A DNA stretch of 56,905 nt, from positions 1 through 56,905 of the forward strand of contig JAUSEK010000006.1 of the NCBI GenBank assembly GCA_030650275.1, written 5' to 3'. Positions 116-38,770 of the stretch are shown in pieces; the first letter of the stretch is position 1; the number at the start of each line of letters is the position of its first letter. Source of the DNA: Candidatus Omnitrophota bacterium. GTDB lineage: Bacteria > Omnitrophota > Gorgyraeia > Zapsychrales > Fredricksoniimonadaceae. The notes below the pieces were generated by a model. It was not told the DNA's origin. It saw only the letters and a program-made list of their open reading frames with translations, and made no database searches. A program made the translations under genes and the position numbers.

Positions 116-1963
116 ATGGACCGTAAACCATTTGCTCCCAATCTCCATACCCCACAGGACAAATATTCCAAGGAAGAGCTGAATAAACTGGCTTCCAAAG
201 GGTTTTTGGGCAATTTGAAAACAGATTTCAGGGACAATTCCCGGCCGGACCTGGTTTGGGAAGCGGAAGCCATTGCCAAATCCCACGGCATCTACCTGGA
301 ATTCAACCGCGCCAAGACCGGCAACGAAAAAGAATGGGTTTACATGGTCCGCATTTCCATTCCCGGCGGCGGCCCGTTAAACCGCGGACAATGGAACGTC
401 ATTGATGATCTGACCGAAAAATACACCAGGGACAGCGAAGGCCGCCCTTCCATACGGCTGACCACCCGCCAGAACATCCAGTTCCACTGGATCAAAAAAG
501 AGCATGTGGTTGAGGTGATCAAAACACTGGCCGAATCGGGCTTAAACACCCTCAACGGCTGCGGGGACAATACCCGCAATGTCATGGGATGCCCCCTGTC
601 ACGATTTTCCGATGTCTACGATGCCAATGCCATGGCCCAAAAAGCCGGGCTTTATTTCCAATTGCCCCTCGAGCCCTTTATTGAGGTCTGGGCCATTGAC
701 CCCAAATACCTTAGAAAGCCCGAAGAATCATTCCAATACGGGCCCAATCTCCTCAACCGCAAGTTCAAGATCGCTTTTTCCGGAGTTGTTAAAGATGAGG
801 CCACCGGTCATCTGGTCGCAGACAATTGTGTGGAAGCCCTGACCCATGACCTGGCTGTAGTGCCAGTGATTGAAAGTAATGCCTCCGCCAAAGGCGGATC
901 CGCCTTCGGCGGAAAATTCCAGATCTACGTGGGCGGCGGCCAGGGCGAACGCAACGGCAAACCATCCATGGCTTGTTTAGGCAAACCCCTGGGCATCGTG
1001 GATAAAAACCGTTTGTTTAAAACTTTGGATGCCGTGGTCCAGGTCCACCAGGAATGGGGCGACCGCGAGAACCGCGTCTGGGCCCGCCTCAAATACGTCA
1101 TCAAAAAGATGGGGGCCGCCTGGTACCGCGAACAGGTGGAAAAAAAGCTTGGCTTTAAATTGGAACCACCAAACCCCTCTTTGGATCCCGGAGCCAGACA
1201 TATGCATCATGGCTGGTTCAAACAGGCGACCAACGGGCTTTGGTCTTACGGTGCTTTTATTGAGAACGGCCGCCTGATCGACTCGGGCCCCAACGGCAAA
1301 CTCAAGTCCATGTGCCGGCATTTGGTGAACAGGTACCCGGTGGAACTCCTCATCACCCCCAACCAGGACGCCCTTTTCTCTAATATACCCGAGGCCTCAA
1401 AGAAAGAATTTGAAGCTGATCTGGCCAAATTCGGATTCGGCAAGCGCAACGGCAAGGCCTATTCCACCCTGCGCCTGCTTTCAGGGGCCTGTGTGGGCCG
1501 CGACACCTGCCGTTTGACATACACGGATTCGGAGAAATTTGAACCTTTTTTGATCGATGAACTGGAGACCTTGGGCTGGGGGGAACTGGCAGAGTCCATC
1601 GGTATTACCGGCTGTGAACGGCAATGCTTCCGGCCTGCCACCAAAACCGTGGGGTTGGTCGGCTCCGGATTAAACCGCTACCAATTGAAGTTAATGGGGA
1701 CCGAAGATGCCAGGCACCAGGGATTGTCCCTTGTTTCCCCGGATGGCAACGATATTTACTTAAGGTCCATCCCCCGCGAGCGGGTAGCGGCTGTCTTGGA
1801 TGCGCTTTTCAAATTCTGGAAGGCCAAAGCCAAACCCGGAGAAGACCTGGGTTATTTTAACCGCCGCATCGGCATGGAAGGCCTCATCAGCCACTTCAAA
1901 GAGAACCCCATTACCGCAGACCTGATGGCCAAACCCTTCCCGGCCGACTGCATTATTGAATAA
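116..1963 (+). CDS. Siroheme-[4Fe-4S] sulfite (or nitrite) reductase
   Basis: Six-electron reductase of the ferredoxin-type sulfite/nitrite reductase family, 615 residues from the ATG at 116; a TTG start at 98 would add six. The siroheme/[4Fe-4S] ligands are visible as CVGRDTC (Cys459, Cys465) and CERQC (Cys500, Cys504). The N-terminal half has the family pattern around GDNTRNVMG. The family includes both nitrite and sulfite enzymes. Sulfite is favoured because cysD, cysN, cysH and a CbiX-type chelatase lie in the same window, and a ferredoxin-NADP reductase that could supply electrons converges on it downstream. Residues 257-266 (SAKGGSAFGG) are encoded by a palindromic repeat inserted in frame. 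The stop codon TAA is the first triplet of another palindrome at 1961-1994. Confidence 0.88.
   Translation: MDRKPFAPNLHTPQDKYSKEELNKLASKGFLGNLKTDFRDNSRPDLVWEAEAIAKSHGIYLEFNRAKTGNEKEWVYMVRISIPGGGPLNRGQWNVIDDLTEKYTRDSEGRPSIRLTTRQNIQFHWIKKEHVVEVIKTLAESGLNTLNGCGDNTRNVMGCPLSRFSDVYDANAMAQKAGLYFQLPLEPFIEVWAIDPKYLRKPEESFQYGPNLLNRKFKIAFSGVVKDEATGHLVADNCVEALTHDLAVVPVIESNASAKGGSAFGGKFQIYVGGGQGERNGKPSMACLGKPLGIVDKNRLFKTLDAVVQVHQEWGDRENRVWARLKYVIKKMGAAWYREQVEKKLGFKLEPPNPSLDPGARHMHHGWFKQATNGLWSYGAFIENGRLIDSGPNGKLKSMCRHLVNRYPVELLITPNQDALFSNIPEASKKEFEADLAKFGFGKRNGKAYSTLRLLSGACVGRDTCRLTYTDSEKFEPFLIDELETLGWGELAESIGITGCERQCFRPATKTVGLVGSGLNRYQLKLMGTEDARHQGLSLVSPDGNDIYLRSIPRERVAAVLDALFKFWKAKAKPGEDLGYFNRRIGMEGLISHFKENPITADLMAKPFPADCIIE
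884..913. repeat. In-frame palindromic insertion inside sulfite reductase
   Basis: Thirty bases form two adjacent small hairpins, TCCGCC-AAA-GGCGGA followed by TCCGCC-TTC-GGCGGA, and the whole is a near-perfect palindrome. It is read in frame as SAKGGSAFGG within the reductase. Nearly the same 30 bases, in the same orientation and frame relative to the gene, occur in the M20 peptidase at 37830-37859. Confidence 0.75.
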
Positions 1964-8291: not shown

Positions 8292-8324
8292 AAAAAAGGG
8301 GACACTTTATGGTGTCCCTTTTTT
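8292..8324. repeat. Family A palindrome between convergent genes
   Basis: Arms AAAAAAGGGGACAC and GTGTCCCTTTTTT around loop TTTATG. It lies between the last small membrane gene and the fumarase gene, which point towards each other, and with its T runs could terminate both. One arm has an extra G compared with the perfect copies at 1961 and 34946. Confidence 0.7.
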
Positions 8325-16253: not shown

Positions 16254-16297
16254 AAAGGTAGCACCTGCCTTCTCCGAAGAAGGCAGGTGCTACCTTT
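16254..16297. repeat. Family C palindrome between cysH and cysD
   Basis: A 44-base palindrome with arms AAAGGTAGCACCTGCCTTCT and complement around a short centre (CCGA). The cysH stop TAA overlaps its end by two bases. A second, perfect copy is at 38727-38770. Confidence 0.8.
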
Positions 16298-34945: not shown

Positions 34946-34977
34946 TAAAAGGGGACACCTTAAGGTGTCCCCTTTTA
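34946..34977. repeat. Family A palindrome at the trpB stop codon
   Basis: A perfect 32-base palindrome, TAAAAGGGGACACCTT and its complement. Read on the minus strand its first triplet is the TAA stop codon of trpB, exactly as the copy at 1961 supplies the stop of the sulfite reductase. Confidence 0.8.
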
Positions 34978-36156: not shown

Positions 36157-36837
36157 CTACCCCTTGTAATCCGTGATCACCATAATGGTATTGGCGATCC
36201 CCACAGCACCGCTGATCTGGAACGGAATGTGACGGCCGTCAATGCTAAACCATATTTTGTATTTGGCCGGGTTGCTTTCCATGTATAAACTTGCCGCTTT
36301 GCGGCCGGCCGCTTTGATGCGTTCCGGCCTGACAATGCCTATTTTCAATTTCTGCGTCGGTAAAACGATGTCCAGGTCCTCACCCGCCCGAAATGAGCCG
36401 CTGCGGCGGTAACGGTAGATGAACCCGTAAATATTATCCACCGCGCCATCAACAGCGATCACCTGTTGGGTCTCTTTGCCCCGGGCAAATTTGTGCAGGT
36501 AGATCTTTTTGGCCCCCTGCAGATAGTCCTCACGGATCTTTTCTTTTGCGCCGAAAATGTTCAAGTCGCGCAGAACGACGACCGGAAAAAGCGTGTCCGG
36601 GTCCAGATAGATCTCTTCCTTGTCATAAAAATTAAAACCATCAGCCCTGAAAACGATCAAAAACAAGCGCCGGCCTTCATACTGCACTTCACCGGGAAAT
36701 GTCAGGGTCGCCCGGCCCACCTTCATGAACCCTTGCTTGATGTCGTACGTCATGACCTCCCCGGCGCTAAACGGCGCGGGCGCGGCACAAACCGCCGTAC
36801 CCAACAGCAAAAATACTGAAAGAAAAAATGACTTCAT
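36157..36837 (-). CDS. DUF3108 envelope protein
   Basis: A 226-residue protein with a Sec signal peptide (MKSFFLSVFLLLGTAVCAAP) and a DUF3108 beta-rich domain starting FSAGEVMTYDIKQGFMKVGRA, and ending IANTIMVITDYKG. The family is periplasmic and of unknown function, common in Gram-negative bacteria. The start overlaps the M20 stop by four bases. Confidence 0.82.
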   Translation of the reverse strand: MKSFFLSVFLLLGTAVCAAPAPFSAGEVMTYDIKQGFMKVGRATLTFPGEVQYEGRRLFLIVFRADGFNFYDKEEIYLDPDTLFPVVVLRDLNIFGAKEKIREDYLQGAKKIYLHKFARGKETQQVIAVDGAVDNIYGFIYRYRRSGSFRAGEDLDIVLPTQKLKIGIVRPERIKAAGRKAASLYMESNPAKYKIWFSIDGRHIPFQISGAVGIANTIMVITDYKG

Positions 36838-38006
36838 CGCCCGTCGTACTCTTTCAGGAACGCCTCCAGGACACGCGCACCGTTATACAAAGTTTTAATG
36901 TCCGCGTATTCGTCGTTGGCATGGATAACGCCGTGACTGCCCCAGCCCGTGGAAAAAGCCGGGATGCCATGATCCTGAAAAAACGTGATGACCGTGGCCC
37001 CCTGGCTTCCCGTCAATTTCGCCTTGAAGCCCATTTTTCGGCACACGTCCACGTATGTTTTGACAAACGGGTCCTTGGGGTTGATCTCATACGGTTTCTG
37101 GCTGTCATCAACAATGACCTTGAACTTTTTTGCCTCTTGACCAATAAGGACCTTGACCTCTTTGACAATGCCCGAGGCTGTCATGCCGGGCATGAAACGG
37201 ATATCAAGGGAAAACTCACAGAAATCCGCCACCATATTAACCTTGTCCCCGCCGCGGATCGTGCCGATATTCTTCGTCGGCGGGACCAGCAAAAGATGTT
37301 TCTTAAACTTGAACTGATGCTTTTTCAAACGACCGATAACACGTGCGGCGATCTCAATGGCATTGACCCCCATCCAATTGTAAGCGCCATGGGCTTTTTT
37401 GCCGAAGATCTGCACCCGGCAATGGACCAGTCCTTTTTGCGCGATAATAGCGTCAAACTCTTCCGAATCCGTGATCAGCGCGGCCTTGGGACGCAAAATT
37501 CCCTTATCCAGCAAAGGCCGTATGCCGTAGTGGCTCCCTGTTTCTTCGTCCACCGTGGCGGCAAAAACAATGTCCCTTTTCAGGCGAACACCGTCCTCAA
37601 CCAGACTGCGCAGGGCTTCCATGCCGACCGCGCAATTGCCTTTGTCATCGCTCGCACCGCGGCCATAAATGCGGCCCTTGTGGATCTGCCCGCCGGCCGG
37701 TTTGAACGTCCAGCCCGAACCGAAGACGACCGTATCAATATGCGGGGTGATGAGCAGCGCTTCCCTGGCCGCCCGCTGACGGGGCCATGTGCCTTTGAGT
37801 GTCGCAATGACATTGGGACGGTCCTTTTGTCCGCCGGAGGCGGATCCGCCTTTGGCGGAAAAACTGACCATCTTAACGTCCAGCCCCAAAGACCGCATGT
37901 CCTGCGCAATGAATTTGGACACCATCCGTTCATTGCCCGGCGGATTGACGGAATCAAACTGCACAAGTTTCTGCGTGAGCCGGACGAGCCGATTTTTATT
38001 GACCAT
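36834..38006 (-). CDS. M20 family metallopeptidase (ArgE/DapE/CPG2-like)
   Basis: A 390-residue dizinc amidohydrolase. Metal ligands sit in LLITPHIDTVVFG, GRGASDDKGN and ATVDEETGSHYG, with the dimerisation (lid) domain from about residue 180. Substrates could be acetylated amino acids or succinyl-diaminopimelate. Residues about 50-59 (SAKGGSASGG), between the N-terminal helix and the first strand, are encoded by a 30-base palindromic insertion. It overlaps its neighbours on both sides. Confidence 0.88.
   Translation of the reverse strand: MVNKNRLVRLTQKLVQFDSVNPPGNERMVSKFIAQDMRSLGLDVKMVSFSAKGGSASGGQKDRPNVIATLKGTWPRQRAAREALLITPHIDTVVFGSGWTFKPAGGQIHKGRIYGRGASDDKGNCAVGMEALRSLVEDGVRLKRDIVFAATVDEETGSHYGIRPLLDKGILRPKAALITDSEEFDAIIAQKGLVHCRVQIFGKKAHGAYNWMGVNAIEIAARVIGRLKKHQFKFKKHLLLVPPTKNIGTIRGGDKVNMVADFCEFSLDIRFMPGMTASGIVKEVKVLIGQEAKKFKVIVDDSQKPYEINPKDPFVKTYVDVCRKMGFKAKLTGSQGATVITFFQDHGIPAFSTGWGSHGVIHANDEYADIKTLYNGARVLEAFLKEYDGR
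37830..37859. repeat. In-frame palindromic insertion inside the M20 peptidase
   Basis: On the coding strand TCCGCC-AAA-GGCGGA then TCCGCC-TCC-GGCGGA. It is read as SAKGGSASGG, differing from the copy in the sulfite reductase by a single codon (TCC for TTC). Position, frame and orientation relative to the gene are the same. Confidence 0.75.
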
Positions 38007-38726: not shown

Positions 38727-38770
38727 AAAGGTAGCACCTGCCTTCTTTAAAGAAGGCAGGTGCTACCTTT
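38727..38770. repeat. Family C perfect 44-base palindrome
   Basis: AAAGGTAGCACCTGCCTTCT with TT at the centre and the exact complement, 22 bases per arm without mismatch. It lies in the gap between ksgA and the thioesterase. The other copy is at 16254-16297. Confidence 0.85.

Follow-up and report, generated by a model that had tools for sequence, protein, structure and literature searches.

A 30-bp palindrome made of two adjacent hairpins is inserted in frame in unrelated genes of a Candidatus Omnitrophota genome and recurs in many phyla. It is a real and widely dispersed coding palindrome, undescribed in the literature searched; it works like the Rickettsia palindromic elements (RPEs) but is separate from them. 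Rickettsia and Wolbachia are the best-known sources of protein-coding palindromes. The present one is probably a short non-autonomous dispersed DNA element; within genes, nearly all copies lie in one frame, here called the linker frame.

Copies in the source genome

The window, the whole stretch of 56,905 nucleotides that was analysed, is contig C6 of a 1.63-Mb genome in 26 contigs. It contains only two double hairpins, at 884-913 (forward strand) and 37830-37859 (reverse strand), where a sequence-only reading had noticed them; none is expected in shuffled sequence. The first lies in a sulfite/nitrite reductase-family gene (116-1963, forward strand; NIR_SIR, NIR_SIR_ferr) and the second in an M20 peptidase gene (36834-38006, reverse strand; Peptidase_M20, M20_dimer); the enzyme families named in that reading are borne out by the Pfam matches to NIR_SIR and Peptidase_M20. 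Copy 1 consists of the forward-strand hairpins TCCGCC-AAA-GGCGGA (884-898, loop NNA) and TCCGCC-TTC-GGCGGA (899-913, loop TNN). Copy 2 consists of two reverse-strand hairpins which read TCCGCC-AAA-GGCGGA (37845-37859) and TCCGCC-TCC-GGCGGA (37830-37844) on the coding strand. The two enzymes share both the frame of the element and its orientation relative to the gene, as had been claimed; the encoded peptides are SAKGGSAFGG in sulfite reductase and SAKGGSASGG in the peptidase.

Single 15-mer units, TCCGCCNNNGGCGGA, occur 33 times in the genome; the reversed control pattern does not occur. When other stems are allowed, there are 19 double-hairpin copies (none for the reversed control), 17 of them additional to the two from which the sequence-only reading had proposed a mobile coding element. 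By stem pair, 14 are pure TCCGCC/TCCGCC, four are TCCGCC/TCAGCC and one is TCCGCC/TCTGCC. Of the pure copies, 13 are in frame inside genes, all in the single frame SA-x-GG-SA-x-GG (SAxGGSA(S/F)GG). Their hosts are sulfite reductase, the M20 peptidase, transketolase (3' end), a RodZ-like protein, IF-2, adenylate kinase, ribosomal protein L3, a polysaccharide deacetylase, HemB, SMC, a RhaD-type aldolase/dehydrogenase, a glutathione-synthetase-like protein and a zinc-ribbon protein; these names were assigned from sequence, with L3 and adenylate kinase backed by matches to solved structures. Read in the linker frame, the TCAGCC unit closes with TGA, and its four copies are found outside genes or at a gene 3' end; in the copy on contig C14, the element itself provides the stop codon of the host gene.

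Insertion sites and target

Comparison with relatives reveals empty sites. The hemB gene of a congener, with 97% identity at the protein level, reads GCC|AAG at the point where the source genome has GCT-[30 bp]-AAA; the gain is exactly 30 bp and there is no duplication. The M20 peptidase insert is exactly 10 amino acids (residues 50-59) and is absent at the same site in 12 of 12 relatives; the inserted residues are not conserved in homologues. In one of these 12 relatives, G033, the M20 gene has its own SAKGGSASGG at a different site, an independent insertion event. BioD is 10 amino acids longer than in relatives, while adk (+27 bp) and the glutathione-synthetase-like gene gshB (+33 bp) show gains near 30 bp. 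The net gain in sulfite reductase is only eight amino acids (24 bp) because the 10-residue insert replaces about two codons found in relatives. Coding copies have no consistent target site duplication, and the gain is exactly 30 bp in hemB, the M20 peptidase gene and bioD. These differences in presence and absence between relatives suggest that the element has moved.

The target has a recognisable sequence. For hemB, adk, gshB and the deacetylase gene, the congener without the insert already has the AA that stands directly 3' of it in the source genome. Across genomes, among the matches listed, AA stands immediately 3' of 63 of 88 coding copies (14% of background codons) and TT just 5' of 33 of 88 (10% of background). 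Since the element is near-symmetric, TT before and AA after can be read as one rule: insertion beside TT on one strand.

In the congener G001, the genes for L3 (rplC) and RhaD contain the second hairpin only (TCCGCCTCCGGCGGA), at the same place as the full copy in the source genome. The insertions at these two places are therefore probably older than the split from G001, which then lost half of each. In these derivatives 6 bp (rplC) and 3 bp (rhaD) of upstream sequence are also gone, in frame; the deletion of the first hairpin thus follows a repeatable pattern.

Copies outside long open reading frames in five of the matched stretches lie within 7-bp-periodic direct repeats. Flank matches at these copies peak at 7, 14 and 21 bp (z of about 6-7); coding copies lack such a signal. 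The periodicity may reflect target duplication or a preference for heptamer repeats.

Hairpin architecture

The element follows the pattern TCCGCC-nnA-GGCGGA-TCCGCC-Tnn-GGCGGA. Each unit is a 15-nt hairpin with a 6-bp stem and a 3-nt loop, and the two units are directly adjacent, head to tail. In the 48 variants listed, the first loop ends in A in 47 and the second begins with T in 44. Where the stem varies in these variants, 41 units are compensated inside their own hairpin and 16 are broken; compensated forms include TCAGCC/GGCTGA, TCTGCC/GGCAGA, TTCGCC/GGCGAA and TTAGCC/GGCTAA. Variable stem positions are paired in 173 of 192 cases under a two-hairpin model compared with 102 of 192 under one long hairpin.

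These stem-variant counts rule out a single long hairpin as the only structure, with some complementarity between loops left over in the cross-phylum set: loop dinucleotides of the matches listed are complementary more often than expected by chance (32 compared with 18). Single copies are predicted to fold as two hairpins or as one long hairpin, according to flanks and loops. Given this residual complementarity and the dependence on flanks, the single long hairpin may matter alongside the two hairpins, and both forms may be relevant. As read from the sequence, a length of 30 bp preserves the reading frame, and with the common loop combinations none of the six frames contains a stop codon. The window has no Rfam match at gathering thresholds.

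Reading frame and selection on the protein

The frame test counted only copies with one dominant open reading frame of at least 180 amino acids. Among the matches listed, 88 of 97 confidently coding copies are in the linker frame; this comprises 68 of 77 cross-phylum copies (P = 2e-23 against one third) and 20 of 20 same-phylum copies (P = 3e-10). The loops are also asymmetric. On the coding strand, the first loop is NAA in 51 copies and NGA in 21; the second loop, read on the other strand, is NAA in 24 and NGA in 56 (P = 8e-7), which means that serine is favoured over phenylalanine at the second loop. This asymmetry is a footprint of translation and of selection on the protein. The earlier suggestion that the element is tolerated as a flexible Gly/Ser/Lys linker gains support from both the frame bias and the loop-codon bias.

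If insertion is random, one frame is tolerated and coding density is 90%, the genic share of copies is expected by our own arithmetic to be about 75%. Among the matches listed, there are 148 distinct copies, of which 88 confidently code in the linker frame while others are ambiguous; this is within range of the expectation. Sequence also identifies further hosts in other genomes, among them glutamine synthetase, DnaK, DnaJ and additional core enzymes. In one DnaJ-like gene, two copies lie about 100 bp apart (at 888 and 993 of the matched stretch) in the Gly/Phe-rich region, both in the linker frame.

The M20 insert is predicted to form a disordered loop on a sound fold: the model, built from 13 sequences, has a mean pLDDT of 83.6, and residues 52-59 fall below 50 between strands 43-49 and 63-70. 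The sulfite reductase model (five sequences, mean pLDDT 44.6) is of low confidence and was set aside; loop placement in that enzyme is consequently backed by alignment to solved sulfite reductases, which locates the insert at a short turn. The original description of both sites as surface-type loops is consistent with the M20 model, and in sulfite reductase with the structure alignment only.

The glutamine synthetase site

Four genomes of three families have the element at the same place in glnA, HQSLF|KG. The flanking proteins are 60-87% identical, and identical residues share the same codon only 39-49% of the time. Although the surrounding synonymous codons have diverged, all eight stem codons are identical in copies drawn from a pattern search that itself favours perfect copies. 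An old insertion followed by neutral drift would not predict this identity, which is instead expected from repeated insertion at a TT|AA site, from gene conversion or from selection acting on the nucleic acid. Conservation of these stems could point to a role of the DNA or RNA itself instead of selfish spread.

Distribution across phyla

A search for the exact 30-base pattern, using one genome per species, matched at least 118 stretches. Among the matches listed, the labels of the metagenome-assembled genomes include Patescibacteria (many classes), Omnitrophota, Kiritimatiellae, Lentisphaerae, Ignavibacteria, Firestonebacteria, Margulisiibacteriota, Auribacterota, Deltaproteobacteria and Chloroflexota. 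Bin contamination may be behind some of these labels, but not dozens of them. In a sample of 384 genomes from the phylum of the source genome, the exact form is found in 54 and a generalised form in 99, compared with none for the reversed control; 285 genomes lack even the generalised form, and the highest copy number is 23. In three Kiritimatiellae stretches, the element lies inside a longer repeat whose end is tgtcattccgagcgtag-aggaat and which resembles another short repeat of wide occurrence.

Carriage by plasmids or phages was considered and rejected: plasmid and phage collections contain no full-length match, and there is one match among viral contigs. Horizontal transfer between Omnitrophota and Patescibacteria has been reported in groundwater (PMC12455944), which makes cross-phylum spread of the element plausible.

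Search for a mobilising enzyme

A search for Y1 transposases (PF01797, Y1_Tnp) covered 55 relatives and 19 high-copy genomes and included a scan of flanks. Of the relatives, 42 have the family, which shows no link to the element and is common also in relatives that lack it. Some Y1_Tnp is encoded by 17 of the 19 high-copy genomes; none was detected in G096, which has 20 copies (completeness 87%). An element copy is found within about 1.5 kb of two of 60 Y1 loci. The palindromes that flank the two RAYT (Y1) genes of the source genome are different ones, GGTAGCACCTGCC..., which has a GTAG, and GGGGACACCCACC.... Among the Y1 loci of the source genome, the relatives and the high-copy genomes, no mobilising gene linked to the element was found, and linkage to RAYT is thus unsupported by this search and flank scan.

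The window also contains other palindromes. A 42-bp GTAG-bearing palindrome, AAGGTAGCACCTGCCTTCT-NNNN-AGAAGGCAGGTGCTACCTT, is located at 16255-16296 and 38728-38769; the source genome also has it next to one of its Y1 transposase genes (C4:5081-5413), and it therefore looks like the REP belonging to that RAYT. Palindromes of the form GGGGACAC-NNNNNN-GTGTCCCC are located at 1967-1988, 8298-8319 and 34951-34972; the second Y1 transposase gene, C11:63531-63863, has a related palindrome, GGGGACACCCACC, in its flanks.

Origin of the element and alternative explanations

Sequence comparisons establish that the element is dispersed, that it adds exactly 30 bp at the cleanest sites, that its stems stay paired and that within genes it is confined almost entirely to one frame. 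If the element is a short non-autonomous one, as seems probable, insertion would be roughly random within genes, and selection would purge the frames PPxADPPxA and RxRRIRxRR together with the stop-bearing TCAGCC/GGCTGA variant; linker-frame copies would survive as tolerated disordered loops. More tentatively, copying might proceed via single-stranded DNA folded into two hairpins. A putative hairpin-recognising strand-transfer enzyme might cut beside TT/AA, by analogy with IS200/IS605 or RAYT chemistry, and horizontal transfer might carry the element from phylum to phylum. It is possible, though rather doubtful, that the element represents a distinct mobile double-hairpin class, which would cross phyla, use an undescribed hairpin-specific enzyme, enter TT/AA sites without duplication, form 10-residue loops in essential proteins and insert recurrently in glutamine synthetase.

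A REP-type element mobilised by RAYT (TnpA_REP), which would also enter genes, is an unlikely explanation. The 30-bp size, the hairpins and the lack of target site duplication all fit; intragenic REPs are known (PMC3733652), REPs can be short palindromes of 5-8 bp (PMC8266576), and the Y1_Tnp genes of the 17 high-copy genomes and the copies near two Y1 loci are in keeping with it. However, the element lacks a GTAG or CGTC foot and has TT/AA flanks, its copies are few and mainly genic, and the Y1 survey opposes such a link through the different palindromes beside the source RAYT genes, the result for G096 and the frequency of Y1_Tnp in element-free relatives. Less probable still is a functional DNA or RNA site, such as a palindromic binding or processing site, which is kept by selection and is not mobile. 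Compensated stems and the glnA stem codons, identical against a background of 39-49% codon sharing, are what such a site predicts; patternless presence and absence at orthologous sites in near relatives, scatter over unrelated core genes, exact 30-bp insertions and the lack of the generalised form in 285 of 384 genomes are not.

An origin free of any enzyme, in which fragments of nascent strands or oligomers of hairpins become joined through AA/TT microhomology or through template switching, is similarly improbable. A single sequence that is conserved in so many phyla requires something to recognise it, and exactly 30 bp is inserted at several sites; on the other side, no cognate enzyme emerged from the Y1 searches, some copies outside long open reading frames have 7-bp periodic flanking repeats, and the single-hairpin rplC and rhaD derivatives of G001, with 3-6 bp missing upstream, show that hairpin-associated deletions occur. 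Convergent selection on proteins for a Gly/Ser/Lys linker would explain why genic copies are nearly always in the linker frame and why serine exceeds phenylalanine at the second loop. It would not lead one to expect the same codons in every protein, a perfect DNA palindrome, or the stop-bearing TCAGCC variant outside genes and at one gene end; copies outside genes already contradict this explanation, which is very improbable. An assembly, adapter or vector artefact is suggested by the GGATCC within the element, which resembles a synthetic linker. This can practically be dismissed, being already contradicted by the many independent metagenome assemblies, the variable loops and compensated stems, the orthologous half-copies in the congener and the lack of a full-length plasmid or phage match.

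Implications

Compensated double hairpins, occurrence in many phyla, an AA-adjacent target without duplication and essential-gene hosts all go beyond the sequence-only reading. A nearly invariant 30-bp element resides in many phyla of largely uncultivated bacteria, within genes that are impossible to lose; such hosts include ribosomal protein L3, IF-2 and adenylate kinase, and in other genomes glutamine synthetase and DnaK. Its copies form a natural catalogue of the places at which core proteins tolerate insertions, and they offer a lead towards a putative strand-transfer enzyme. They also raise a testable question: what share of protein innovation, in loops and linkers, comes from selfish DNA that is harmless in one frame?

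Comparison with known systems

The literature searched, from which subscription journals were mostly absent, contains no description of the 15-mer tested, of the peptide or of coding palindromes in these phyla. DNA uptake sequences differ from the element in copy number, with hundreds per genome compared with 14-19 here and at most 23 elsewhere in the sample. MITEs are characterised by target site duplication, of which coding copies of the element show no consistent sign. Non-autonomous elements of the IS200/IS605 type share hairpins, the absence of target site duplication and a fixed short target, in line with the single-strand transposition model; in contrast, the present element has nothing internal beyond its hairpins, and no matching transposase was identified.

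Mitochondrial double-hairpin elements also consist of two tandem hairpins with paired stems, scattered through genes and spacers; unlike the present element they are organellar and unrelated in sequence, and the part of the source consulted reports no single coding frame (PMC2800124). REP/RAYT systems (REPtrons, including intragenic GTAG and CGTC REPs) share hairpins of 20-40 bp, a lack of target site duplication and intragenic cases (PMC3733652). REPs are mainly extragenic and high-copy, whereas the present element has 14-19 mostly genic copies (at most 23 in the phylum sample); it has no GTAG/CGTC foot and no cognate RAYT was found, and it is nearly invariant over many phyla.

The element also resembles the coding palindromes of Rickettsia and Wolbachia, which are likewise dispersed, inserted in frame in unrelated conserved genes as well as between genes, and tolerated as an extra peptide. 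RPEs are 105-146 bp long and were described from Rickettsia (PMC2229807), where they form families; the present element has 30 bp, two hairpins and one frame, and is found in many phyla. The parallel with RPEs drawn in the sequence-only reading holds for the way of working, in which a repeated palindrome enters genes in frame and persists as part of the protein; it does not extend to membership of the RPEs, from which the element differs in size, tag and host.
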